Below are positions 1 to 47,720 of a stretch of 48,924 bases of DNA, in pieces. How positions within the stretch are numbered: the stretch's first letter is position 1; each line of letters begins with the position of its first letter. The translations under genes were made by a program, and so were the position numbers. Source of the DNA: a bacterium (GTDB lineage: Bacteria; Patescibacteriota; Minisyncoccia; Phycocordibacterales; UBA1550); contig JAUSES010000068.1 of the NCBI GenBank assembly GCA_030649835.1, forward strand, positions 1 to 48,924, given 5' to 3'. Below the pieces are notes generated by a model. That model had not been told where the DNA came from. It ran no database searches and worked only from the letters and a program-made list of their open reading frames with translations.

Positions 1-26
1 AAAACCCTCCATTGTCTAGACTATAT

Positions 27-55
27 ATTATATCCCTAAAGCCAAATTTAGTCAA
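27..55 (-). promoter_or_regulatory. sigma70-type promoter reading off the left edge
   Basis: Minus strand TTGACT (50-55), 17-nt spacer, TATAAT (27-32). Confidence 0.6.
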
Positions 56-79
56 CATTTTTGTATTTGATGAGTTTTT

Positions 80-353
80 GATTATGAGTTTTGTTAAGAG
101 GGCGAAATTCCTGTCGCCCTGTGAAAAGTACTTTCACCAGAATTTTTTTCCATGAGATATACTGATTGCATCGTGACTTCGTGCAAGAATATACATCGTC
201 ACATAACATGCGACAATCGTGGAAATCTCCCAAATTGATACCGGGTGCCCATGAGCTAGCCACACCTGATTCGCATGAAGAACATTGCCAATCATCATAA
301 TGATTCTCCTTCGTAATAAGGAGGGTAATTCCCCCTTAACAAAACCCACAATC
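80..353. repeat. Element bounded by ~23-bp imperfect inverted repeats
   Basis: gattatgagttttgttaagaggg (80-102) versus reverse complement of cccccttaacaaaacccacaatc (331-353): 19/23 matches by eye. Confidence 0.55.
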
Positions 354-414
354 ACTCACTTTTTCAAATAACATTTTTGTGCTTGAACGGCAGCTCTGCT
401 GTTCAAGCACGGTC

Positions 415-2520
<2,106 letters not shown>

Positions 2521-2971: not shown

Positions 2972-2999
2972 ATTATATACAAAAGGAAAACGATGTCAA
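2972..2999 (-). promoter_or_regulatory. Promoter upstream of 23S rRNA
   Basis: Minus strand TTGACA (2994-2999), 16-nt spacer, TATAAT (2972-2977). Confidence 0.7.
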
Positions 3000-3202
3000 C
3001 CCCGACACCTACTTTTTCATTATTGCATTGTGTTTCCAATATATTGTCTACAAGAATCCTATATTTCACTTGATAAATAAGGGTTTACTGAATGAATAAA
3101 AAGCAATAAAACACGATGAAAAAGTAGGTGTGGGGGTCAAGGAAAATGGGTGGAATATTGAATTTAAAATAGGGAATGATGGATTATGCATTAAAATCAA
3201 CG

Positions 3203-3229
3203 AAAAACCCGCCTTTTTGGCGGGTTTTT
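3203..3229. terminator. Bidirectional intrinsic terminator
   Basis: aaaaacccgcctttttggcgggttttt. Confidence 0.75.
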
Positions 3230-3282
3230 AGAACGTATTATTACCTTTTTAGATATAGAGCCATGAACACCGATTGTGAGAG

Positions 3283-4374
3283 TTATTTAACAGGACCTAC
3301 TGGAGACGGCAAAGGTACGCCAAAACTCGAAGATGGCGGGACGACACTAGACATAGACGGAGGTATCATTAATGGTAATTCTCTATCCTGATTCATCAGT
3401 TCAACCATTTCAACAAATGAATTTCTTTCTTTAAAACGTTGCAAATCTTCAGCGCGCCCATAAAGATCAAGTGCAGTGATTAGAAATTTTTGTTCTTTTT
3501 GCGCCTCTTCAATATGTGCAATAAATGCATTTCGGAGCCCAGTATCGGTTATTGTTGGCAACATTTTCTTTTCAATCTCTATGCGTTGGTTAAGAAAAAG
3601 CGAGTGATCACGAACGCAATTGTCCAGCGCCTGTGCTACTGTCTCCCCGACACCAACCCCACAACCTCCATTGCTTTCACCTGTATTGTGCCGGAATCCT
3701 TTTACCGCAAAAGCAACATCTCTTGTCATCTTCTTCACTTCTTCCAAAGACATACCGTGTGTAAAAGTTGCCGTCGCAAAGATTTCTTTTCTTGGTTCTT
3801 TTTCAAGAACTTCACCAAAAGTTTCGTAGGTGCTGTCTGTAGGTAGTATGGATGGTGACATTAGCGGAGGAATTCCCACACCTTGATAATGTGGTTGTCC
3901 ATTCCCCATAGGAACAAACAAAATGGTAAATGCAACAAGGAGGAGCAACAAAATGGTAAGAAAAATATATTTTACAGAAAGTAACGAGAAAATTTCCTTG
4001 TTTACTCTCCTTGTATAAACAACAAAGAGAATCCCTGTGAGCACTATTTGCGTAATTACTATATCAAGAAAGAAAATGGGCAGAATAGTTGTATGATAGC
4101 CTTGCCCAGGATAACTAAAACTACTCATTTTTTGCGGAAGTAAGTACAGCCCAACTGGGGAAGCGTTTACTCCAACAAAATCTATTGAGTGATATCCGAG
4201 AGGAAGCCCCGACCGCACATCGCGCAGGTCTTCATCTTTGTATACCATTTCGCCTGCCCAAATTTGAGAAGTTCCAACAAAAATTATACTTAGCGTAAGA
4301 ATAGAAAAAAAATATTTTTTTGAAAAACTAAATAATTTAATTAGCATACTGTTAGTATACTTCGTAGTTCTCAT
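3283..4374 (-). CDS. Membrane protein: N-terminal TM module plus C-terminal 'KGFRH' domain plus Pro-rich tail
   Basis: 363-aa ORF. N-terminal 'LIKLFSFSKKYFF.ILTLSIIFV' matches the 6708-7259 protein; C-terminal half matches the 5246-5830 protein. Confidence 0.85.
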   Translation of the reverse strand: MRTTKYTNSMLIKLFSFSKKYFFSILTLSIIFVGTSQIWAGEMVYKDEDLRDVRSGLPLGYHSIDFVGVNASPVGLYLLPQKMSSFSYPGQGYHTTILPIFFLDIVITQIVLTGILFVVYTRRVNKEIFSLLSVKYIFLTILLLLLVAFTILFVPMGNGQPHYQGVGIPPLMSPSILPTDSTYETFGEVLEKEPRKEIFATATFTHGMSLEEVKKMTRDVAFAVKGFRHNTGESNGGCGVGVGETVAQALDNCVRDHSLFLNQRIEIEKKMLPTITDTGLRNAFIAHIEEAQKEQKFLITALDLYGRAEDLQRFKERNSFVEMVELMNQDRELPLMIPPSMSSVVPPSSSFGVPLPSPVGPVK

Positions 4375-4378
4375 AAAA

Positions 4379-4407
4379 AGAACCCCTTAAATTAATTAAG
4401 GGGTTCT
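4379..4407 (-). terminator. Intrinsic terminator
   Basis: Perfect 12-bp stem agaaccccttaa-attaa-ttaaggggttct; minus strand followed by TTTTT. Confidence 0.75.
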
Positions 4408-4429
4408 AACTAGTATCAACTACTGATGA

Positions 4430-5218
4430 TTAACAACTTGCGTTTGTGCTTATATCCCACTTATACCAATACTGACGGCACCCAGGAGCAACAAAATTAG
4501 GGACACCTGGACTTGCGTCCCATGGAAGAGTAAACGTAGTTGGCGTGTTTGTTGGCGGTTGGTTACATCCATACGAATTCCACTTACCGTAAAAATAAAC
4601 CCATGACGGAGTGGTGGGGATCGCGAGTCGACCTCTCTGAGAAGACAACTTTACTTTCCCCGAACTAGCACCTCCATCATATACCCGTGTTACAGTGTAA
4701 TAGACCCTTTGAGGCGAGAGTGATACGGCCTGAGCAGACCCTATCGTGACTGCCCACTCATTACCTGAATCCCCCCACGCTGTGTCTTGATATGGGCTCG
4801 GCAAATCAGAAGCCCAATATCCGACAACGTCACCACCTCCATACCATACTGTCCGTGGAAAGTAGCCATATGCTGTCGTAGAATTACCAGGACCCACAGG
4901 AGGTTCCCCCGGAAAGTGAGGGAATTCTACAATTCCACTCCCTGATCCGTCAAACAAGGCCTCAGGCTCGTATGTACTGTCTCCATTACTACTGAACCAC
5001 GCCAATCTTCCATAACTATCCCAGTACATCCACTGATAAATATATTTACTGTACTGGTCTTGATTCACATACACCTGCCCCCAACTTGGGACAAACTGTG
5101 TGTCTGTTGCTGATGAACAGTTTATAGTGCTTCCATCTTGATACGGCACTTCTGCTCGAACCAGAACTGCACTACAAGACAAACATAAAACTAAAATGAG
5201 TTTCCAGAGGTACTTCAT
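4430..5218 (-). CDS. Secreted protein of unknown function
   Basis: 262-aa ORF with signal peptide. Shares an LPSxYxD...GSxQA segment with the C-terminus of the 7835-8929 protein. Confidence 0.8.
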   Translation of the reverse strand: MKYLWKLILVLCLSCSAVLVRAEVPYQDGSTINCSSATDTQFVPSWGQVYVNQDQYSKYIYQWMYWDSYGRLAWFSSNGDSTYEPEALFDGSGSGIVEFPHFPGEPPVGPGNSTTAYGYFPRTVWYGGGDVVGYWASDLPSPYQDTAWGDSGNEWAVTIGSAQAVSLSPQRVYYTVTRVYDGGASSGKVKLSSQRGRLAIPTTPSWVYFYGKWNSYGCNQPPTNTPTTFTLPWDASPGVPNFVAPGCRQYWYKWDISTNASC

Positions 5219-5245
5219 TATGAATCTCCTTTTCAGTATTGTTGG

Positions 5246-5830
5246 TTAGGGAACAATCGCAGGTTGCGGTTTCCCGTTTTGCTTGAGCTCAATAACGCGG
5301 ACAAAAGAATTTTTATTCTTGAAGTCCTCAATGTCTCGTGCCCGCCCAGAAACTTCGACACCAACGACACTAATGCCATTTTTATCGAAGTCCGCTTTCA
5401 TTTGGTCGGCCTCCTTGCGGTGGGCAACCATTGCATTGCGTAGCTCGACATTGGTTTCCGTTACTACAGCACGGTCTTCGATTTCCATTCTTTTTTGCAA
5501 GAAAAACAGATGATCTCGAGGGTAGTTTACCATCGCCTCGTCCAGTGTTTCGCCTTGCTTCAAAGAATAACCACCGCTGTAGGATTGTGTCCCGTGACGA
5601 AAGCCCTTGATCGTAACATTGCTGTTAATAAACGCAGTGCGAACATCTTTGAGGGTCATATCGTTAGTGAAAAATGCCGCAACTTCGACTTCTTTTTCAG
5701 GGCTGTCCTTCAAAACCTGTGCGAAACCAGCTCCTGCTTCTGCAATTCGCACGTCAACGGGCGGAATAGCAAATGATGTGAATGGAAAAATTAGTGAAGC
5801 CAACAATAGTAAAGCTTTCGTAAATCTCAT
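5246..5830 (-). CDS. Secreted protein consisting of the 'KGFRHG' domain
   Basis: 194-aa ORF, signal peptide, SD AAAGGAG; colinear similarity to the C-terminal half of 3283-4374. Confidence 0.85.
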   Translation of the reverse strand: MRFTKALLLLASLIFPFTSFAIPPVDVRIAEAGAGFAQVLKDSPEKEVEVAAFFTNDMTLKDVRTAFINSNVTIKGFRHGTQSYSGGYSLKQGETLDEAMVNYPRDHLFFLQKRMEIEDRAVVTETNVELRNAMVAHRKEADQMKADFDKNGISVVGVEVSGRARDIEDFKNKNSFVRVIELKQNGKPQPAIVP

Positions 5831-5853
5831 GGTGTAACTCCTTTATGAATTGA

Positions 5854-5880
5854 TTAGCAAGTGATTGAATTGAATTTCAT
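5854..5880 (-). CDS. Putative 8-codon leader ORF MKFNSITC
   Basis: ATGAAATTCAATTCAATCACTTGCTAA in the leader of the 5246 gene; counterpart at 8953-8979. Confidence 0.25.
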   Translation of the reverse strand: MKFNSITC

Positions 5881-6017
5881 TATTGCTTGTAGCCCTAGAG
5901 ATACCTCCTTTCGTTTATAAAGAACAGACCAGCCTCGAGCTTAACATGGTTTACAAAAAAAAAAGAAAATTTTTATGAACAGCACAAAGTTTGGATAGAA
6001 TTTTCATTTCACTTGCC

Positions 6018-6056
6018 CACACAAAAACCCGCCTTTTGGGCGGGTTTTTGTGTGGG
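6018..6056. terminator. Bidirectional terminator
   Basis: ccacacaaaaacccgccttttgggcgggtttttgtgtgg. Confidence 0.75.
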
Positions 6057-6087
6057 TTGTTCCGAAATTCCAACCAACTAGCAATAA

Positions 6088-6639
6088 TTAATTTAGAGGA
6101 GATGGGATGGGCGTAGGAATTACATGGCGAACCATGGGCGTAATAGGCATATAAATTCCTGGATTCCTCCATTCTAATATTTTTAAACTTATAAACGAAG
6201 CACTAATAATTACTACAATAAGCGTGACAATAGCAATAAGAGTTACTTTAAATGTGGGCGGTCTCACCACAATGCCTGCCTTTCGAAAAAAGAGCGCTAG
6301 TGAGAATAAACCTACTCCCCACAAAATAGCGTTAATTATAGCGCTACCAAAAAAATTGTTCCAGACAATTACTGGGGGAGCCCATAGCTCCTTCATAGGA
6401 TGGTCTACAAAAGAAAAAGGAATCGGCCACCCATTCTCAAGGGGTTTTATCACATCAAAGCGATAAGTAGCGTCATCTGCCCAAAAGATAGAACTTCCAG
6501 TAAAGAAGAGCGCAAAAACGATAATAAGGCCTGCCACTTTTAGCACGCTCCCTTTTGTCTGGAAGATACCGATAATATTGATTGTAAGAAATGCAAGAAT
6601 AAATATGAAAAGAATAAAGGTAATTAAAGCTTCAGGCAT
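6088..6639 (-). CDS. Membrane protein, paralogous to the 6708-7259 protein
   Basis: 183-aa hydrophobic ORF with the same layout (TM / 'SSIFW' / TMs / Pro-rich ...PIPSPLN tail). Confidence 0.75.
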   Translation of the reverse strand: MPEALITFILFIFILAFLTINIIGIFQTKGSVLKVAGLIIVFALFFTGSSIFWADDATYRFDVIKPLENGWPIPFSFVDHPMKELWAPPVIVWNNFFGSAIINAILWGVGLFSLALFFRKAGIVVRPPTFKVTLIAIVTLIVVIISASFISLKILEWRNPGIYMPITPMVRHVIPTPIPSPLN

Positions 6640-6661
6640 AATTTTATAGTATTTTTAAAAA

Positions 6662-6694
6662 ATAACCCTCTTTGTAATCATACGCGGAGGGTTA
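6662..6694 (-). terminator. Intrinsic terminator
   Basis: Minus strand ATAACCCTC...GAGGGTTAT followed by TTTTTT. Confidence 0.6.
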
Positions 6695-6707
6695 TAAATT
6701 GTATCGG

Positions 6708-7259
6708 CTAATTAGCTGTAGCCGGGGACGGAACATGAGTAGCAGGAAATTCCGAATTAGGAACAGGGTTGTTCATGTCGGGCGATGTCCGTACCGAAAC
6801 CTCTCCGCCCGCCAATAAAGACGGACCAAATGCATATATAAAAATTATTGCAACGAAAAACAGGAGCCCCGTGAGGACATTTTTTACGGAAAAGAATCTG
6901 AAAAATTTTTGGGTTTTTGGAAATATTGAATATACGAGAAAGAATACAATTGTGAACACAGATTGAACAATCATTATGTTTAAGAAAAACATGTTCCAGA
7001 TAAAAGATGCAGGAACCTGCCACCCAATGCCCAGCTCCTGAGGAGATTCAATAGGCCCGATGTGTGAGTAATTAATTGAATAAAAAGCAAAAGGAACCCC
7101 GACATCAACGAGATACTTTTCTTCCAATTGGTATATAGTGTCCGTCGTCCAAAAGATAGAAGAATAAACAAAAATTACACTCAACACTAAAATAGGAAAA
7201 AAATACTTTTTCGAGAAACTAAAAAATTTTATTATCATATCGTTATTAGATCTATCCAA
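6708..7259 (-). CDS. Membrane protein, paralogous to the N-terminal module of 3283-4374
   Basis: 183-aa ORF; 'IIKFFSFSKKYFFPILVLSVIFV' and ...HVPSPATAN tail. Confidence 0.75.
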   Translation of the reverse strand: MDRSNNDMIIKFFSFSKKYFFPILVLSVIFVYSSIFWTTDTIYQLEEKYLVDVGVPFAFYSINYSHIGPIESPQELGIGWQVPASFIWNMFFLNIMIVQSVFTIVFFLVYSIFPKTQKFFRFFSVKNVLTGLLFFVAIIFIYAFGPSLLAGGEVSVRTSPDMNNPVPNSEFPATHVPSPATAN

Positions 7260-7314
7260 CTAGAAACGATTAATTTATTGGGGAGGGAAATTGAAATTAT
7301 TCAAAAAACAGCCA

Positions 7315-7740
7315 CTATTTATGACTTTTATGTTTCTTTGCGATAATCAACAACGTGAGCGCGTTTATCACGATTACTACAAAAAAAACTGCAATTATGA
7401 CAGTCCCTAACACGGCGGCAAGATCGCTTCTTTCATACATAGCTGCATTTATATATATAAAAATAAAAAAAGGAGACATGACATATAACATAAAACTGTG
7501 ACGTACATGATCTACCATGGTAGGATTTTTCGTTCCCTCAAATCGTAAGAGAAAGTAACTTGCTCCACCACATACAACAATCCCCCAAAAAGTGAGCAAG
7601 AAAATAAAATCAACATCTCCTTCGCGCCATAAAGTATGCGATCTTCCCATAGTTTCAATCATCCTCATTGACTCTACTACAAGAAAAAAAACCAGTATTG
7701 CCGAAAGCGTATATAAAATTGGGGATATAATTTTTTTCAT
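7315..7740 (-). CDS. Multi-pass membrane protein of unknown function
   Basis: 141-aa ORF, about four hydrophobic segments. Confidence 0.7.
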   Translation of the reverse strand: MKKIISPILYTLSAILVFFLVVESMRMIETMGRSHTLWREGDVDFIFLLTFWGIVVCGGASYFLLRFEGTKNPTMVDHVRHSFMLYVMSPFFIFIYINAAMYERSDLAAVLGTVIIAVFFVVIVINALTLLIIAKKHKSHK

Positions 7741-7790
7741 TTTTTAAGTACCCTATCGTACAGTAAAGCACAGTTTATAGATTTACAAAA

Positions 7791-7819
7791 ATGGAGACGC
7801 TTTTGTAAAGCGTCTCCAT
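7791..7819 (-). terminator. Intrinsic terminator
   Basis: atggagacgcttttgtaaagcgtctccat; minus strand followed by TTTTTG. Confidence 0.7.
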
Positions 7820-7834
7820 AACTACATAAACGAT

Positions 7835-8929
7835 TTACGGATTATATGTCCAGCTTTGCTGATAACTAATCGGCGCATAGTACATCACTAAGCTCCCTGT
7901 TGTCATCGTAGGCCAAATACAGAACGTAGGGCTATGGCACGAACTGGGCTCACGATACCCGAGCTGACCTTTTATCCTCACCAACGCGGTAGATACAAAC
8001 TGTGGACGAAGCGACATATATGTCCAATATTGTGTATTTACCGTGATGGATGACGCCTGAGATGACCCGACAGTAAAATTATCAATAGTCGGATCTGGGT
8101 CAAACTTACTAAAATCAAGATAATGACTGGGTAAATTGCTGCTATAATAATTATCATAATCAGCAAAATTCTTCTCATACACTTGTGTTTCGTGCTCGTA
8201 TGTCAAGATACCGCCAAACGATGAGAAGCCGCTAACATTAGGAAAGTAGAAGGTATTGAACGCCATAGACTGTGTAGTTTTTGACGATCCGCTTCTTGGT
8301 ACCCATAAGCTCGGATTCACATAATAGATACCGTGTGACGCATGAGCCTTCGATATTGCGAAATCAAGTACCTTTTCCAAAGACGAGATTTGTTGCTCTT
8401 TCGCCTGTTGCCCTTCTCCTCTTTGCCGAAGGATTTCTGAAGATGGGGCAACTTTACTTACCACCACGCTCCATTCACGAGACGCCAACAGCCCAACATC
8501 ACGAACAGTCACCGCATGAATACGAAACATCCCATCCTTTACTTCTTTTAGTGCGGACTGGAATTTTGATTGCATTTTGCCAAGTCGAGATTTGTTTTCC
8601 GTGTCCCGCTCTTTCGCGATTTCATCCTCTGTGGACGAGACTGCAACATCGAGAAACTCCTGATGTTTCGCAAGCATGTTTTCAAAAGCTTCTTCAACTT
8701 CCACCTCCTTTGGTATCGTGTAAACGCTTACCATGTCCTCGTGTTGATGCCGAAGCTCTGTGGGAACGAAGTTGAACTTTCTCACCATGTTCATCAATTG
8801 TTTTTTTGACAACGGTTGCTTGAATTCAACAACAAATTCCTCGCTACTTTGTAAATCTGCGGCATAGGTACTGCTTATGCCACCTACAAGAAAAACGAAG
8901 ATTAAAGCAAAGACTTTTATGTACCTCAT
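7835..8929 (-). CDS. Secreted two-domain protein: diverged 'FRH'-type N-terminal domain plus LPSxY domain
   Basis: 364-aa ORF, signal peptide, SD AAAGGAG; leader nearly identical to that of the 5246 gene. Confidence 0.8.
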   Translation of the reverse strand: MRYIKVFALIFVFLVGGISSTYAADLQSSEEFVVEFKQPLSKKQLMNMVRKFNFVPTELRHQHEDMVSVYTIPKEVEVEEAFENMLAKHQEFLDVAVSSTEDEIAKERDTENKSRLGKMQSKFQSALKEVKDGMFRIHAVTVRDVGLLASREWSVVVSKVAPSSEILRQRGEGQQAKEQQISSLEKVLDFAISKAHASHGIYYVNPSLWVPRSGSSKTTQSMAFNTFYFPNVSGFSSFGGILTYEHETQVYEKNFADYDNYYSSNLPSHYLDFSKFDPDPTIDNFTVGSSQASSITVNTQYWTYMSLRPQFVSTALVRIKGQLGYREPSSCHSPTFCIWPTMTTGSLVMYYAPISYQQSWTYNP

Positions 8930-8952
8930 TGTGTAACTCCTTTATGTACGAA

Positions 8953-8979
8953 TTAACAAACAGTTGAAATGAATTTCAT
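8953..8979 (-). CDS. Putative 8-codon leader ORF MKFISTVC
   Basis: ATGAAATTCATTTCAACTGTTTGTTAA; counterpart of 5854-5880. Confidence 0.25.
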   Translation of the reverse strand: MKFISTVC

Positions 8980-9118
8980 TGATACTAATTGCTTTCAGAG
9001 ATACCTCCTTTCGTTTATAAAGAACTGACCAGCCCCGAGTGTAGCATGGTTTACAAAAAAAAAGAAAGTTTTTATGAACAATGCAAAATTTGGATAGAAT
9101 TTTCATTACACTTGCCTC

Positions 9119-9147
9119 CAAAAAAACCCGCCTTTTGGCGGGTTTTT
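9119..9147. terminator. Bidirectional terminator
   Basis: aaaaaaacccgccttttggcgggttttt. Confidence 0.75.
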
Positions 9148-9233
9148 ACCGAGGTTAAACCTCGGTTGAGGCGGTAATTCCCTTTGCCGTAGCGCATTTA
9201 CCTCCCTAGGATGACACCGAGGCGCACCGATTT

Positions 9234-9274
9234 CCACACGCAAAAACCCGCCTAAAAGGCGGGTTTTTGCGTGG
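9234..9274. terminator. Bidirectional terminator
   Basis: ccacacgcaaaaacccgcctaaaaggcgggtttttgcgtgg. Confidence 0.8.
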
Positions 9275-9321: not shown

Positions 9322-10011
9322 CTAGCGATTTGAGATATCTGCGCGGAGTTTCTCAATGTAGCCTGATGCTGCATCTTTGCCACCGAGTCCAAATGCAAGT
9401 CCGCCAGCGATAGCGAGCATTGCTACAAGGCCAGTAAAGAGTGTCTGCATCATAGGACCTGCAATACCGAGCTGGTTCAATGCTGCAAGAATTGCAACAA
9501 TCCAGATTGCCCAGCGTGCGATACCGCCAACAAACCCAGCTGACTTTGACTCAAGAGCGCGTGCGCCTCCAGTCAAAACTTTCTGAGAAAGATCAGCAAG
9601 AACTGCTGCAACAACCAAAATCAAAGTTGCTACGATAACCTGTGGAATGTATCCAAGAACAACATTTGTCAAAAATGTATTTACCGCCTGAAGATTGAGC
9701 ACATCAAGAGCAGTAACGAGGAATACGATGATAATAAACCACTTTACCAAGCCACCGAGAAACGCACCGGTGTTTAGGTTGAACCCTGCTTTGCTCAAAA
9801 GGCTTTTTGCTCCTGCGCTTTCAAGGATTGCGTCAATTTTAATTGTCTTCACGATCTTTGAAATAACCTCTGCAATAACAGAACCAATCACCCAACCTGC
9901 GATAAAAATAATAACGGCGAGGAGAAGTTGAGCAAACACTGAAACTGCTTGTGTTCCAATATTATTGAAGGCTCCACTCAATTGCATTCCCCAATCTGAA
10001 ATAATAGGCAT
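9322..10011 (-). CDS. Mechanosensitive-channel-like protein with conserved TM helices
   Basis: 229-aa ORF with repeated TM helices, 'GGLAFGLGGKDAA' motif. Confidence 0.8.
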   Translation of the reverse strand: MPIISDWGMQLSGAFNNIGTQAVSVFAQLLLAVIIFIAGWVIGSVIAEVISKIVKTIKIDAILESAGAKSLLSKAGFNLNTGAFLGGLVKWFIIIVFLVTALDVLNLQAVNTFLTNVVLGYIPQVIVATLILVVAAVLADLSQKVLTGGARALESKSAGFVGGIARWAIWIVAILAALNQLGIAGPMMQTLFTGLVAMLAIAGGLAFGLGGKDAASGYIEKLRADISNR

Positions 10012-12997: not shown

Positions 12998-15900
12998 TTA
13001 CTCAAGTGCACAATCAGGACGAAATTCGCAAACGGCAATATTTTGACCGTTGTCGTGCACGGAAGTGTTGCTCAAAATTACTGATTCTGAGGTGTCAACG
13101 GAAATCCCGACCGTGTTTCCTGTAATCTCACTGTTTGTTATACTAACGGGTTCAAGGGGTTTTTCTACAGTAATACCACTACCGTAGTCGGACCATATTA
13201 GTGAGCCTTCTTCATCATAATACACTTCTGATTTATTGAACCCTTTCACCGTGGTGCTTGCAATAGTTGTCACTCCACCATAAATTTCTATCCCATCATT
13301 GGGGCCATTTTCAATAACAACATTAGTGATAGTGGAAGTTGCATCATCTAAAGAAATACCGTAGTCCTCAACATTTCTAATAGTGGTGTCCGAAACGTTT
13401 AATATTGAATCATAGGCGCCAATACCGTTGCCCTCTATTCCATCAATGGTTGTTGATGCAATAGTTAATATTGAATTACCATACGCCCCGAACGCGTCTC
13501 CCCAGCAAACATTCTTAACTGTTGATGAGCTCACTGTTAGCACAGAATTATTATCTGCACCAAAAGCATCCCCACAGATATTATTAATTACCGCCCCGCT
13601 GACTGTTACCGTTGAATTATTGTAAGAGCCAAACCCATCTCCTCGTCCAAGATTGTTGACAGTGGTTGACGCAACAGTAATTACAGAATTATTGAATGCG
13701 TCAAAGGCATTACCTTTCTCACTGTTATCTATAGCAATTGAAAAGGCATCTATCGTTGAAAAATCATTTGCATAAAACGCACTGTTGATTAGATTGTTGA
13801 AATTAGTATTTTCCACAAAAATCTGTCCGTGACTAATCGCTGCGAGACCGCCGTCAGTGTGAATAAAATCTGAATTTCGAACATCTATTCTTGCATGATC
13901 AATAATTATTTCCCCTACATCCTCAAGTTGTACGTATTCAAGCGTGCTCGTTCCCGTACCACCACGAAGAATCAACCTGCCCGTTGGATTTCCCAAAAAT
14001 GAGTTAAAAATAATTGGTTCTTCGACCGTTCCTCTCGCATCAAGTGTTCCATTAACCACCAATGCCCCATCATACCGATAATATTCGCGACAATTGCATC
14101 TCTGTCTATAAAACGAAATAGTGACACCGGGTTCTATGGTCAGTGTACTAGTAGCGCTTACAGAAATAGTTGTCGTCGCGACATATCTTTCTTCATCTGA
14201 AGTCAGAGTAAAGTCGCTTGTGATATTCTTCCCTTTATTGATGAGCATGCTTATTGAATTCTGCATACCAGGGGTACCACCGATTAGATTGTCATCAGCA
14301 TCTAATCCGTTTCTGCTAAGCCCTTCACGATAGCACCCGGTCGAATATATGTATTCAATTTTCGCTTTTTGAGAACATTCGAACATCTCATCATCAGTCC
14401 TCGTGTCGCCGAGGTTGGTGCCCCAGTTTTCAGGATTTGAACCATCTTCTCTTGAGGAATAACGTTCCATCGTTTTTCTTGATGTTGTGCTGTTCGTGCC
14501 TCCCGCCCATGCTCCTTCGGGGGTTTGGTCAAACGTGGTGGATGCGTAAGAAAGATTGAGCTGTTCTCCGGAGTTGCCGAGAGCTCCAGTGTAAATTTGA
14601 TGCGCTGCTACATCAGAAACGGTTGTGTCGTCGATGCGTTCAAAAACAAGATACCCTCGCGGAGCGATCGTACCGGTGAGTTTCACGTGTGGCATGCCGT
14701 CTTTTGCATTAAGCTCCCATTGCGACAGGTCAATCGTATGCGTAGTATTGTTTTTTATTTCAAACCATTCGTCAGTCGCGGAAGCAACGGTCCCCATCCA
14801 CGCGATCTCATTGATGGCAACAGGAATTGTGGCGACAGAAACTTTTTGCGTGCTTGTGGCGCTTACGGTGCCGTCCGGACCAACTGCTACAACCTCAAAT
14901 ACATAATCAGAAAAATCTTTTGCAATTTCATCAAGAGCATTATCTGTTGTTGTAGCGATTGTCCCATTTTTGTTGACGACATAATGATCAGCTCCTTCAA
15001 CTTGTGTCCACTCAAAACGCACTGTTGTGGTGGCTAAAAGACACCCGTCGGTTGCTAGGGTTTGCGCACATTGTGATGCAGAAAGAATGGGCGCGGCCAC
15101 AGCCACACCCACTCTTTCTGCCGTCTCCCCTTTCCCAGTTGCTTCGTCCGTACCCGAAGTGCTCGTTTGTGTTCCCAAAACCTGCTGTGTCGGCGAGCCT
15201 CCACCACTACTGTCCCCCGTAACCGTTCCCACAAACACCAGCTTCGGCATATTCGTCCCCGCCTCCCCCACCTTCGGCTCAAATACAAAAACTGTCTGGG
15301 GTTCTTGCTGGTTTTGTATTTGCGGTTGCTTTGGAATGGTTGTCGTTATTTTTGTTGTTGTCGGTTGTGTTTTTGTGGTCTGTTGTATAAATACTATTGA
15401 ATTTAGTACAGTATCCTTGCTGACTTCGTATCCAGTTTTAATTGCGCCTGGAATAGCTGCAATCTGATTTTTAGACCAATTGTAAGAAGCTACTTCCGCT
15501 GCTCCCACACCAAAGAGTGCAATTTTTGTTCCGTTCGCTCCTTCTTGCACGGAAACAGTTCCTACTGTCACGACCCCAGACCCGAAGGAATACAGTGAGT
15601 TCCACGCAGGAGTAATTACTGGATCAATAATATAATCAGAAACAAGATACCCGAAACCGTATGTTAACCTTGTAAAAAACCCTGGGACTCCTGTGCGTGA
15701 CAAAATTTGTGCTTGAACAGTATTAGCACGTGTTTCTGCTTCCTTTTTTTTGCGTAATTCAGCTTGATATATCGCCCGTGCTTTTTCCCCCTCCTTAAAA
15801 AACAGGTCAACGACGCCAGCCCCACTTGGAATTATTTGTAGGGATAGTCGGTCGAAATAGGATGAGAGGATGGAGGTATTATCTTCAGTATTTAAAATTT

Positions 15901-16684
15901 TATTTCGTGAACCATCTTTCTCTTGCTTTACAATAGCAAGTTTGACCATCTCGCCTGTTAGATTATCTTTGGCATAAGCATACCCATCCAAAACACTTGT
16001 AAATACCGGTTCTGCGTAGACGGAGCCCTCAATCGTATCTCTGCTAAAAAAATTCCTATTTGAATAATTTGCCAAAAAATCAAAATATGCCCCGAGGTCA
16101 TTAAAAACTCTTGCCAGTGAGCCCGCATCCATGTATCGTTTCCCAAGCCCTGCCAATGATGTGCGATTTTTATTTAGTGCTGACCAGTCCTCATAAGGGC
16201 TGTCCCCTCCAAGAGCTTCCCATACTGGTAAATGTTGGTCGTTTCTTGTATGGTCCGGAACCCCCATGTCTTCTATCAAGTGGACTACGTGTCCAAGTGC
16301 TACAAACGCACCACTTTCATCTCCTTCTGCGTAAAGTTTTATCGCATCATTCCAGTCATATTTGTTCAGCTCCACATCGCCTAGCGCCCAGTCTTTTGCA
16401 CTACGGCTAGACGCCACACCCATTCCACGCACTGGATCATAGAAATGATTTACTGCGCGAGTAGAAGGCTCGTCTTCTTCCATAGCACCCTTTATCATAG
16501 ATTCTTTTTGAGTGTTGGTAATTTTATTACCAAATTGTAGATTATAAAATTCCACCACTTGTTCGGTGAGCCCTGCGTGTGTTTGTGTCGGCTCATAGGC
16601 AAAAGCGTCGGATGGGATAGTGAAAAAAATTATGATGAGAAATAATTTTTTCATAAAATCTAGTATGGTTGTTTTATTTTCCAA
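12998..16684 (-). CDS. Large secreted protein: zinc-phospholipase-C-like domain, lamin-tail (LTD) domain, C-terminal beta-helix repeats
   Basis: 1228 aa. 'THAGLTEQVVEFYN...NHFYDP...ALGHVVHLIEDMGVPDHTRND'; 'INEIAWMGTVASATDEWFEIKNNT...DLSQWELN'; repeated 'NNSVLTVSSSTVKNV' units. Confidence 0.8.
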   Translation of the reverse strand: MENKTTILDFMKKLFLIIIFFTIPSDAFAYEPTQTHAGLTEQVVEFYNLQFGNKITNTQKESMIKGAMEEDEPSTRAVNHFYDPVRGMGVASSRSAKDWALGDVELNKYDWNDAIKLYAEGDESGAFVALGHVVHLIEDMGVPDHTRNDQHLPVWEALGGDSPYEDWSALNKNRTSLAGLGKRYMDAGSLARVFNDLGAYFDFLANYSNRNFFSRDTIEGSVYAEPVFTSVLDGYAYAKDNLTGEMVKLAIVKQEKDGSRNKILNTEDNTSILSSYFDRLSLQIIPSGAGVVDLFFKEGEKARAIYQAELRKKKEAETRANTVQAQILSRTGVPGFFTRLTYGFGYLVSDYIIDPVITPAWNSLYSFGSGVVTVGTVSVQEGANGTKIALFGVGAAEVASYNWSKNQIAAIPGAIKTGYEVSKDTVLNSIVFIQQTTKTQPTTTKITTTIPKQPQIQNQQEPQTVFVFEPKVGEAGTNMPKLVFVGTVTGDSSGGGSPTQQVLGTQTSTSGTDEATGKGETAERVGVAVAAPILSASQCAQTLATDGCLLATTTVRFEWTQVEGADHYVVNKNGTIATTTDNALDEIAKDFSDYVFEVVAVGPDGTVSATSTQKVSVATIPVAINEIAWMGTVASATDEWFEIKNNTTHTIDLSQWELNAKDGMPHVKLTGTIAPRGYLVFERIDDTTVSDVAAHQIYTGALGNSGEQLNLSYASTTFDQTPEGAWAGGTNSTTSRKTMERYSSREDGSNPENWGTNLGDTRTDDEMFECSQKAKIEYIYSTGCYREGLSRNGLDADDNLIGGTPGMQNSISMLINKGKNITSDFTLTSDEERYVATTTISVSATSTLTIEPGVTISFYRQRCNCREYYRYDGALVVNGTLDARGTVEEPIIFNSFLGNPTGRLILRGGTGTSTLEYVQLEDVGEIIIDHARIDVRNSDFIHTDGGLAAISHGQIFVENTNFNNLINSAFYANDFSTIDAFSIAIDNSEKGNAFDAFNNSVITVASTTVNNLGRGDGFGSYNNSTVTVSGAVINNICGDAFGADNNSVLTVSSSTVKNVCWGDAFGAYGNSILTIASTTIDGIEGNGIGAYDSILNVSDTTIRNVEDYGISLDDATSTITNVVIENGPNDGIEIYGGVTTIASTTVKGFNKSEVYYDEEGSLIWSDYGSGITVEKPLEPVSITNSEITGNTVGISVDTSESVILSNTSVHDNGQNIAVCEFRPDCALE

Positions 16685-44045: not shown

Positions 44046-47000
44046 CTATTTACTTATTTCAAACGCAAAGCCGATTCCATCGACGAGAGCATCTGTTCCT
44101 TCTACTTCCCCAAATACAATCTCGCTCACCTGTGCGGTTTTTTTAATTTCCTGAGAAAACTCTTCTACGAGAGCTCTTCCTTCATCTGTCGTTTTAATAG
44201 TCAGGGTAATAATATCTGATGGGTTAAGTTTAGACTCCTTACGAAGCTCCTGTATGTCACGAAGTAAGTCCCGAAGTTGCCCTTCCCTCTTCAGGTTTGG
44301 GGTGACATTTGTATCAAGAGATACCTCATCGATAAGTGAACTATCAAAGGCAACTTCTTTAATGTTTACTTCATCCAAAATGAGTGCAATGTAATAATCT
44401 TTTCCTTTTAGTTCTGTGTTTTTTACCGTCAGTCGGGTGAGTGGCTGACGCACCTTTATCCCCGCTTTGGCGCGGGCTTCAAGCCCAAGCGATACGATAC
44501 GGCGTACCTCTGTCATTTTCACAAGCGCCTCAGTCTCATGCTCCTCGCACAAAGGGGGCGACATGTCGCTCCAACCTTCGAGATGTACACTTTCTTTTTT
44601 TCCACCTACACGTTTATAAATATCTTCTGCGAGAAAAGGCATTATGGGCGCAATAAGTTTTGAAAACTCAGTGAGAACGATGCGCGTGGTGCTGATCGCT
44701 TGTGCGCGGTCGTCAGCGTCATCTGATTTAAAACGGTCTCTAGAGCGACGCACATACCATGTAGAGAGGTCGTCCACAAAAAGATTGAGTGGCTTCACCG
44801 CGCGGTCAATCTCGTATGCATCAAGAGCCGCTGACTCTTCACAAGTTACTTCTTTTAAGCGTGCAAATATCCACATATCCAGTACGTTGGGCGCATGTGT
44901 TGGCGCATGCTCTTCCCCACGGTACAATTCGTAAAACGACAATACGTTGGAAATACGCATAATGATTTTTTTTACCACTTCATCAACGCCACGCTCAACA
45001 AACGCCAAATCCTCAGCATGCACAATAGGTGAAGAAAGAAGGTAGTATCTTACAGCATCGACTCCATATCTATTTATTACATCAATTGGGTCGGGGTAAT
45101 TTTTAAGACTTTTTGACATCTTTTGCCCATCCTCCGCGAGAACCATTCCGTTTACAATTACATTTTTAAACGGTGCCTTATCAAAAAGTGCAGCCGAGAG
45201 CACCATCATGCTGTAGAACCACCCGCGGGTTTGGTCAACTCCTTCTGCAATAAAATCCGCAGGAAAATTCTTCTCAAAGAGTTCTTTGTTTTCAAACGGA
45301 TAGTGGAACTGTGCATATGGCATTGATCCTGACTCAAACCAGCAGTCAAACACATACGGCACGCGAGACATTTTTCCTCCGCAGATACACTCCACATTTA
45401 CTTCGTCGATATATGGCAAATGAAAATCAAATTCATAATCTGCATTGTGTGGAAATGGAGTAAAAGTAAGTTTTGTGACTTCGCCTGGTAAAACAAAATC
45501 CTCTTTCCCATCTTTTAGTTCAAGACTACGAGCAATTCCCGCGCCTTCAGCTCCTGCCACAAGCATCCACACAGAATATTCATGAGTGACAATAAGAATT
45601 GTTTTTCCTTGATATTGTTTATCTATCTCTTCTAGAAAATCCATTGCTCTGCGTTTTACATCAAGTAGATTCTCCCCTCCCTGTGGACGCTTCGTAAATT
45701 TTTGTTCCTGCGAAGAAAAATACTCTCTATATTCACTAATTGGTTTCCCATTAAACCCTCGAGCATCAAGTTCTTTTATTCGTTCATCGACAATAATTTT
45801 TCCAACCTCATAACCAATTTCTCTAGCAACGATATCAGCTGTTTGTCTCGTGCGAGCAAATGGTGAAGTGATGATTATATCAATATTATTATCTTTGAGT
45901 TTTTGTGCTGCATTTTCTACAGAAACGCGTCCATTGGCAGTTAGCCCAAACGCTTCACTTCCATTAACTTCCGAACTTACTATTCCACGGGCGTTACTCT
46001 CTGCTTGTCCGTGGCGCATTACAATGTATTTATTGCCTGATTTTTTTGTATGTTCAGCAAGCTCCGCGCGAGAACCAAAAACTTTTCTAGTGTCGCATTT
46101 TTTACATTCCCACACGGGGATAGGTGCGCCCCAATACCGCGAGCGGGAAATAGCCCAGTCGCGCGCTCCCTCCAGCCACTTACCAAAGCGCCCATCACGC
46201 ATGTTTTTTGGCACCCAGGAAGTCTTTGCGTTTTCAGCGAGAAGCTTGTCTTTAATCTCAGGCACTTTTACAAACCACGACTGTGCTGCGTAGTTGAGAA
46301 GCGGAGTATCACAGCGCCAACAGTGTGGGTATGCATGCACAATTTTTTCTTTTGAAAAAAGCGCTCCTATTCCGGCGAGATGTTTAATAATCAAGATATC
46401 TGTCGCTTGATGCGCGTCCTTTTCTCCTCCTTTTGGTCTTACAGATGCGCCCGCAAAATCAAGCACTTCTTTTTTCATAGTGCCATCCATGCCAACATGC
46501 TGAATAAACGGAAGTTTTTCGCGTATTCCGAGCGCCATATCGTCCTCACCAAAAGCGGGCGCAATATGCACGACCCCCGTACCACTTTCCATAGTCACAA
46601 AATCTGCACCATATACTTTCCATCCATTTTCGTGATTTTCTAACGTTTTGTCCTTCGCATAATAATCAAAAATAGGTTTGTAGGACTTTCCTACGAGTTC
46701 CTTCCCTTTCATTTCTGAAATAACCTTGTACTCTTTCCCGGCGAGCGCTGTCTCTACGCGCGATTTTGCTAAAATATATTTTTCTTCTCCTATAGAAACT
46801 TTTAGATACTCTGCCTCTGGGTTCACTGCAAGCGCCACATTCCCAGGGAGCGTCCATGGGGTTGTAGTCCATGCTAAAATAAAGGTACCGGGTTCATTTA
46901 CTATTTCAAATTTTACCGTAACCGAAATATCAGTAATATCTTTGTATCCCTGCGCTATTTCATTGTTTGAAAGTGTCGTCTCACAACGTGGACAAATGTG

Positions 47001-47558
47001 CATAGGCTTGAAACCCTGGTATACAAGATTTTTTTCATATAATGTTTTAAAAGCCCACCACACACTCTCGGTGTAGTTTGCATCCATCGTGCTGTACTCG
47101 TGCTCCATATCAACAAAGCGGCCAATGCGGGGAATGAATTTTTTCCACTCCTTGTCGTAGCGATACACAGACGCGCGACACGCCTCGTTGAATTTTTCAA
47201 TACCGAGCGTTTCAATGTCTTTTTTGTGCAAAAGGCCAAGCTCCTTTTCAACCAGGTTTTCAACAGGAAGGCCGTGACAGTCCCACCCCCATACGCGACG
47301 TACATTACGCCCGCGCATCGTTTGGTAGCGTGGAATTGCATCCTTAATAACACTTGCAAGGATGTGCCCATAGTGCGGAAGCCCTGTCGCAAATGGCGGC
47401 CCATCATAAAAAACAAAATCTTCCCCATCTTTTGTTTGTTCTAGCGACTTTTCAAAAATATATGCCGACTCCCAAAACGCAAGGGTTTCCTCCTCGCGCT
47501 TTGCAATTTCTGAGTGGTTTTTCTGATCTCCATCTTTTTTACTTAGTACATCACTCAT
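44046..47558 (-). CDS. ileS: Isoleucyl-tRNA synthetase with inserted histidine-phosphatase domain
   Basis: 'GLPHYGHILA', 'WTTTPWTLPGNVAL', 'DGQKMSKSLKNYPDP'. Start taken at MSDVLSKKDG (ORF track to 47591). Internal 'YIVMRHGQAESNARG...IIITSPFARTRQTADIVA...TILIVTHEYSVWMLV' block. Confidence 0.96.
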   Translation of the reverse strand: MSDVLSKKDGDQKNHSEIAKREEETLAFWESAYIFEKSLEQTKDGEDFVFYDGPPFATGLPHYGHILASVIKDAIPRYQTMRGRNVRRVWGWDCHGLPVENLVEKELGLLHKKDIETLGIEKFNEACRASVYRYDKEWKKFIPRIGRFVDMEHEYSTMDANYTESVWWAFKTLYEKNLVYQGFKPMHICPRCETTLSNNEIAQGYKDITDISVTVKFEIVNEPGTFILAWTTTPWTLPGNVALAVNPEAEYLKVSIGEEKYILAKSRVETALAGKEYKVISEMKGKELVGKSYKPIFDYYAKDKTLENHENGWKVYGADFVTMESGTGVVHIAPAFGEDDMALGIREKLPFIQHVGMDGTMKKEVLDFAGASVRPKGGEKDAHQATDILIIKHLAGIGALFSKEKIVHAYPHCWRCDTPLLNYAAQSWFVKVPEIKDKLLAENAKTSWVPKNMRDGRFGKWLEGARDWAISRSRYWGAPIPVWECKKCDTRKVFGSRAELAEHTKKSGNKYIVMRHGQAESNARGIVSSEVNGSEAFGLTANGRVSVENAAQKLKDNNIDIIITSPFARTRQTADIVAREIGYEVGKIIVDERIKELDARGFNGKPISEYREYFSSQEQKFTKRPQGGENLLDVKRRAMDFLEEIDKQYQGKTILIVTHEYSVWMLVAGAEGAGIARSLELKDGKEDFVLPGEVTKLTFTPFPHNADYEFDFHLPYIDEVNVECICGGKMSRVPYVFDCWFESGSMPYAQFHYPFENKELFEKNFPADFIAEGVDQTRGWFYSMMVLSAALFDKAPFKNVIVNGMVLAEDGQKMSKSLKNYPDPIDVINRYGVDAVRYYLLSSPIVHAEDLAFVERGVDEVVKKIIMRISNVLSFYELYRGEEHAPTHAPNVLDMWIFARLKEVTCEESAALDAYEIDRAVKPLNLFVDDLSTWYVRRSRDRFKSDDADDRAQAISTTRIVLTEFSKLIAPIMPFLAEDIYKRVGGKKESVHLEGWSDMSPPLCEEHETEALVKMTEVRRIVSLGLEARAKAGIKVRQPLTRLTVKNTELKGKDYYIALILDEVNIKEVAFDSSLIDEVSLDTNVTPNLKREGQLRDLLRDIQELRKESKLNPSDIITLTIKTTDEGRALVEEFSQEIKKTAQVSEIVFGEVEGTDALVDGIGFAFEISK

Positions 47559-47720
47559 ATTTCCAAAGAATACCACAAACCCTTTGCCCAACCAAAATTT
47601 GCTCTACTTTTAAAATCGAGACCTAAACTGCAGATGTGTAGTGTTTAAATTCCGCCGATACCATAAAAACTTCAATTTCTAGGTGTCCTAATTGGACTCT
47701 TGATTTTTTCACGAAATTAT

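Follow-up and report, generated by a model that had tools for sequence, protein, structure and literature searches.

The surface of a Patescibacterium decides its host, and most surface proteins of such bacteria carry no family name. What, then, is encoded by seven anonymous genes that lie side by side next to a 23S rRNA gene in what is probably one of these bacteria? They lie within positions 3,203 to 9,147 of a 48,924-nucleotide stretch (contig JAUSES010000068.1 of assembly GCA_030649835.1), referred to at its full length as the window, which belongs to a 1.06-Mb genome that is 98% complete (G000; other genomes are likewise designated by G numbers) and whose size and gene content suggest a Patescibacterium. 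An initial annotation of the sequence described the region as a cassette of membrane or secreted proteins built from recurring, unfamiliar domains, and proposed a lineage-specific surface family expanding by duplication and domain shuffling, possibly for host contact or adhesion. The analysis reported here supports this interpretation in part. The seven genes resolve into a defined and searchable module at a strain-variable site, comprising two predicted exported domains and a membrane partner, and the two-domain exported protein set is previously undescribed.

The list of open reading frames (ORFs) of the window confirms that all seven minus-strand genes are adjacent, and they are designated A (3283-4374), B (4430-5218), C (5246-5830), D (6088-6639), E (6708-7259), F (7315-7740), and G (7835-8929). 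Comparison of their products with one another by blastp, with pairwise scores checked against 300 shuffles, bore out the proposal that A fuses two modules that also occur separately next door. Its C-terminal part, the ‘FRH’ domain, hereafter domain 1 (about 3361-3819), is 36% identical to C over 159 amino acids (E = 8e-34), and its N-terminal module (about 3835-4374), with three predicted transmembrane (TM) segments at residues 22-40, 100-118, and 136-154, is 37% identical to E over 151 amino acids (E = 2e-23); both similarities beat 300 of 300 shuffles. C itself consists of a predicted signal peptide followed by domain 1 (about 5279-5692). The similarity to A marks E as a stand-alone copy of the TM module, and D is a diverged stand-alone copy with four hydrophobic segments, whose suspected likeness in layout holds at the sequence level (D vs. 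E, E = 1e-7, again better than 300 of 300 shuffles). A third copy of domain 1 had been suspected at the N-terminus of G (about 8435-8842), behind a predicted signal peptide. Pairwise, this region is only weakly similar to C by blastp (E = 0.03, reached by 6 of the 300 shuffles). With hhalign the two align collinearly (E = 2.8e-5, 64 columns without gaps), and in a leave-out test, in which hidden Markov models (HMMs) were seeded only from separate proteins and run on a set of 27 named proteins and 787 decoy ORFs, the N-terminus of G was the best non-seed match of two G-free domain-1 HMMs (E = 1.9e-4 and 0.0023). The collinearity and these matches together indicate that the three copies are real.

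What the initial annotation missed is a second domain. The C-terminal half of G (about 7835-8344) shares an aromatic-rich beta domain with B (E = 8e-5 by blastp, E = 9e-9 by leave-out HMM), which carries it in separate form with the motif ‘YWASDLP..Y.DT’. One two-domain protein is therefore present in two forms, fused in G and split over the adjacent genes C and B. The gene that follows G, F, codes for a separate 4-TM protein; its candidacy as a further TM module was rejected (hhalign P = 0.05), and it is related instead to a 4-TM protein of G011 (L008:7320-7736, E = 8e-8). Signal peptides or TM segments are predicted throughout the cassette proteins, in agreement with the membrane or secreted location first proposed for them.

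The same combination of genes recurs elsewhere in the phylum of the window, the genomes of which were the scope of the profile searches. In G011, a genome of the same genus, a first set comprises a domain-1 protein (C′, 72% identical to C), a beta-domain protein (B′, L004:9494-10264, 71% identical to B), and a stand-alone TM protein (T′, 54-56% identical, with 54% to E), encoded consecutively beside ATP synthase genes; the orthologue of A in this genome is devoid of a fused domain 1. A second set in G011 starts with domain 1, continues with a beta domain that has an additional part at its C-terminus, and closes with a relative of F; in G004, domain 1 is followed by a beta protein and a 110-amino-acid TM protein. 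Two genomes of the genus besides G000 thus have domain 1, beta domain, and small membrane protein in this order. Five genomes at a greater distance (G223, G212, G564, G549, and G489) encode fused two-domain proteins, retrieved with the beta-domain profile alone, domain 1 being then seen upstream, and a gene of the membrane family described below adjoins the fused gene in three of the five (G564, G549, and G489). HMMs built from the separate forms match the fused proteins with the domains in the right order. The beta-domain HMM does so at E = 1e-6 to 2e-14, and the domain-1 HMM is clear in G and G564 and weak in G549, G223, and G489 (E > 0.1, though they outranked almost every decoy in the C-type search). 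In total, domain 1 and the beta domain occur as one chain or as ordered neighbors twice in G000, twice in G011, and in G004, G223, G212, G564, G549, and G489, domain 1 being statistically weak in G223, G212, G549, and G489. Two further candidates were taken as chance matches, namely G001:C1 (E = 0.008) and G026:C4, which reads like an SGNH-type hydrolase. The qualification “lineage-specific” is not supported, since other families of the class and phylum also possess the beta domain, the two-domain architecture, and the membrane module.

How the cassette came to lie beside the 23S rRNA gene can be approached through the synteny of the genus, in which the order helix-turn-helix gene, channel gene, and 23S rRNA gene is kept. 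In the window, the left flank is the gene of a channel-like protein (9322-10011, minus strand; PF05552, E = 1.1e-9), which is 51-86% identical in relatives, and the right flank is the 23S rRNA gene (501-2520, minus strand). The distance between the two is 357-594 bp in the seven genomes measured vs. 6.8 kb in the window, filled by the seven cassette genes; in G004, the module sits on the opposite side of the channel gene. The beta domain is sporadic: 3 of the 16 genomes in the genus have it, as do 4 of the 387 genomes of a class sample. The GC content of the cassette (40.3%) is under that of any segment of this length in the remaining contig (41.9-47.6%), and no integrase or transposase was seen among the cassette ORFs. 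Duplication and domain fusion, as first proposed, hold for this region; a simple local expansion does not fit a sporadic module at a variable locus. The low GC content and the position near the contig end could also mean that foreign genes were joined to the contig end at a break in the 23S rRNA gene during assembly. This artefact is extremely improbable, since a second genome of the genus has relatives of 71-72% identity, the flanks are of the genus type on both sides, G004 independently has the module in the same neighborhood, and another TM-family gene resides on a separate contig of the window genome.

Duplication extends beyond the coding sequences. C and G are preceded by leaders (5831-6056 and 8930-9154, respectively, minus strand) that have about 220 bp in common and are 84% identical, the leader of C starting with a CCCGCC/GGCGGG hairpin and that of G being its duplicate. 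No further full copy was found in G000, G004, or G011, where partial matches lie upstream of C′. Hairpins of the form CCCGCC-loop-GGCGGG occur four times (3193-3235, 6013-6055, 9112-9154, and 9232-9274) and delimit the sets of the cassette; in relatives, the channel gene is also followed by hairpins of a similar type. Both leaders (5831-6010 and 8930-9107, minus strand) contain a strong GGAGGT about 75 nucleotides upstream of the start codon and, by eye, a short ORF between this element and the start (MKFNSITC and MKFISTVC), possible signs of a leader peptide or of an RNA element. As for terminators, most genes had been credited with one of their own; the scan of the cassette gives intergenic terminators only after A, B, and G. 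The hairpin between B and A (4379-4407, minus strand) is 93% identical over 30 nucleotides to one between B′ and T′ in G011.

The membrane partner can be placed in a wider family. The N-terminal module of A aligns with D, E, T′, and the neighbors of the fused proteins over a first TM segment, an outer loop with an invariant G-x-P, and a second TM segment, and this family is present in 12 of the 387 genomes of the class sample. It provides the third gene of the first set of the window, of the first set of G011, and of the sets of G549, G489, and G564. Four genomes (G562, G809, G676, and G662) also have members located within type IV pilin clusters, and in three of them PilD is in view as well (G562, G809, and G676); the Pfam check of these clusters covered the pilins of two genomes and one PilD. 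An HMM seeded without any pilin-linked member matches the proteins of the pilin clusters at E = 2e-9 to 6e-5. The small membrane proteins of these clusters bear a G[YF]P-x-x-F loop (L086:1501-1851, L087:1492-1863, L088:1480-1812, and L085:1516-1881). The TM module is also fused to other C-terminal domains, in a 392-amino-acid protein of the window genome (G000:C59) and in G503. In G664 (L083:1273-1866) the G-x-P module is present in tandem within one chain, and in G503 (L080:1149-2244) two G-x-P genes adjoin, the second with a different C-terminal domain.

No curated family of Pfam, NCBIfam, or PHROGs matches any of the seven proteins above cut-off; no well-characterized family is assigned to them at that level, and the similarities among them are significant. 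Searches by tblastn with B, G, and two distant relatives against plasmids, and with one against phages, returned FN3 tails only, a beta-domain scan of viral contigs returned no relative, and the PDB searched by sequence gave FN3-type constructs or chance matches only. Some relatives of the beta domain have FN3-like and PPC-like tails, both below cut-off. Structure predictions were run on the window sequences. The AlphaFold2 model of C has a mean predicted local distance difference test score (pLDDT) of 72, with most core blocks at about 80-92, and the order strand, helix, strand, strand, two long helices, strand, helix, and strand. The first half of G has a similar order of strands and helices at lower confidence; as C was in the alignment of G, this is not independent support.

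What could such a set of proteins do? One possibility is antagonism, by contact or by diffusion, the two-domain protein being a toxin or bacteriocin-like effector, the N-terminus of A, E, and D immunity proteins, and the extra copies orphan immunity genes. The sporadic occurrence in the genus, the differing genomic sites between genomes, and the partnerless membrane paralogues in G000, G003, and G525, the last with no remnant of a partner, would all suit such a role, but no toxin or enzyme family of Pfam, NCBIfam, or PHROGs is matched, the domain pair is conserved where a variable effector tip would be expected, and the relatives of the membrane module in pilin clusters are left unexplained. 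We therefore consider this role decidedly unlikely.

The explanation preferred here, tentatively and with a likelihood slightly short of even, is that the cassette is a gained or lost surface module in which the membrane protein assists the exported pair as its chaperone or adaptor. The region would be a horizontally variable surface module consisting of two related sets and two spare membrane genes. Its working unit would be an exported protein combining domain 1, predicted to be an alpha/beta domain with a helical hairpin, with the aromatic-rich beta domain, made either as a single chain (G) or from adjacent genes (C then B), and the usual third gene would code for a small multi-TM protein, represented in set one by A of the invariant G-x-P family. 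The pair is predicted to be exported by Sec and would remain at or outside the membrane, where the beta domain may bind an outside ligand, as suggested by its exported, aromatic-rich nature and by the FN3-like and PPC-like tails of its relatives. The small membrane protein may be a dedicated chaperone, adaptor, or anchor; a role as chaperone or adaptor is suggested by the conserved adjacency, by the relatives in pilin clusters, and by the likeness in layout of A to TfpY-like proteins. A would then be an adaptor that carries its own domain 1, displayed outside. Since the small membrane partners sit among pilus genes in relatives, the cassette is probably a swappable surface kit rather than core machinery.

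Several observations weigh against this explanation. F and the corresponding neighbors in G004 and G223 are not detectably in the G-x-P family, so that the third component is not one family, and TM-family genes occur without the exported pair in G003, G000:C59, G503, G664, and G525, so that the family is not dedicated to the pair. No pilin stands beside the module in the window, no NCBIfam match at E ≤ 1 or 10 names a protein of the TfpX/Y/Z type, the beta domain of G gave no usable model, and Foldseek found no fold match for domain 1 among PDB and viral models.

The initial annotation went further toward host contact. If the beta domain were a lectin-like domain that binds the host and is presented by A or by pili, the cassette would be an adhesin system. 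The beta domain is predicted to be exported, is aromatic-rich, and has FN3-like and PPC-like tails in relatives, and in a cultivated Patescibacterium, host binding involves type IV pili, as shown by experiment (PMC12206443); the presence of relatives of the membrane partner in type IV pilin clusters is the sole hint toward host contact. As no lectin or adhesin family is matched and no pilin adjoins the module, this account is possible but doubtful. Somewhat less likely still is a broader conjecture, that G-x-P proteins are general adaptors in small-genome bacteria, serving both type IV pilins and a non-pilus two-domain system swapped between strains at a hotspot beside rRNA genes, and thereby giving strain-specific surface binding.

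Some features around the cassette deserve mention. The 23S rRNA segment (1-2520, minus strand) contains an insertion of about 140 nucleotides (about 1781-1916) compared with relatives, and its similarity to them ends between about 376 and 600, the contig continuing to position 1; this anomaly is possibly an intervening sequence. A perfect TTGACA-N16-TATAAT promoter, nearly kept in relatives, lies upstream of the 23S rRNA gene (2972-2999, minus strand), and since there is no 16S rRNA gene upstream of it in the window, the 23S rRNA seems to be transcribed alone. Further along, a 1228-amino-acid secreted protein (12998-16684, minus strand) combines a lamin-tail domain (PF00932) with a right-handed beta helix (PF13229), and its N-terminus resembles, by eye, a zinc-dependent phospholipase or nuclease. 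An isoleucyl-tRNA-synthetase-like protein (44046-47591, minus strand) has a histidine phosphatase domain (His_Phos_1, E = 2.8e-33, residues 523-688) inserted in its catalytic part.

How, finally, does the cassette compare with known systems? Domain 1 appears to be Sigma_reg_C-like by remote similarity and not an anti-sigma factor. Scores against Sigma_reg_C (PF13791) are 15.7 bits for C, 19.0 for C′, and 21.4 for FR004, all below the gathering score of 25 bits. Over 31 genomes, the profile picked C′, FR18, and C, and its best match was a new G004 protein (E = 1e-4); since the gene of this protein precedes those of a beta protein and a TM protein, a chance match is unlikely. Several independent domain-1 proteins match the same C-terminal stretch of the model, and domain 1, like the extracytoplasmic domain of YhdL-type proteins, is predicted to lie outside the membrane (signal peptide on C; three TM segments in A, positive-inside). 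SigM is held at the membrane by YhdL and YhdK, which form an integral-membrane complex with a response to undecaprenyl phosphate (PMC11081497). Together with the remote similarity of several independent members, this precedent would be consistent with an envelope-stress sensor in which domain 1 is the anti-sigma sensor and A a membrane-bound regulator. In contrast to the YhdL type, the cassette proteins have no cytoplasmic sigma-binding domain, since C opens with a signal peptide and the cytoplasmic N-terminus of A is about 21 residues long, and domain 1 occurs for the most part as a free secreted protein with a beta domain as its partner. Moreover, no sigma gene is linked to the module (the extracytoplasmic function (ECF) sigma genes of G000 are on contigs C34, C17, and C71), and G004 carries the module with no ECF sigma factor at E ≤ 0.01. 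Membership among the anti-sigma factors is ruled out by the missing sigma-binding part, the missing linked sigma gene, and the lack of a recognizable ECF sigma factor in G004; with scores also under the Pfam cut-off, a sensor of the YhdL type is very unlikely.

Inhibitor_I9 and propeptide-like alpha/beta domains have two beta-alpha-beta units. The predicted order of elements in domain 1 likewise has two such units, with the difference of a long inserted helical hairpin, no protease, and no PDB fold match.

The pilin accessory proteins TfpX, TfpY, and TfpZ have three TM segments and a periplasmic C-terminal domain, with a terminator between the pilin and the accessory gene, and TfpY-like proteins are proposed to be chaperones or adaptors (PMC11841053). 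The C-terminal domain of A differs from theirs, and the window genes have no adjoining pilin, although their G-x-P relatives are found in pilin clusters. A and the 392-amino-acid G000:C59 protein nevertheless share with TfpX/Y/Z a predicted arrangement of three TM segments and an extracytoplasmic C-terminal domain, and A is likewise preceded by a terminator.

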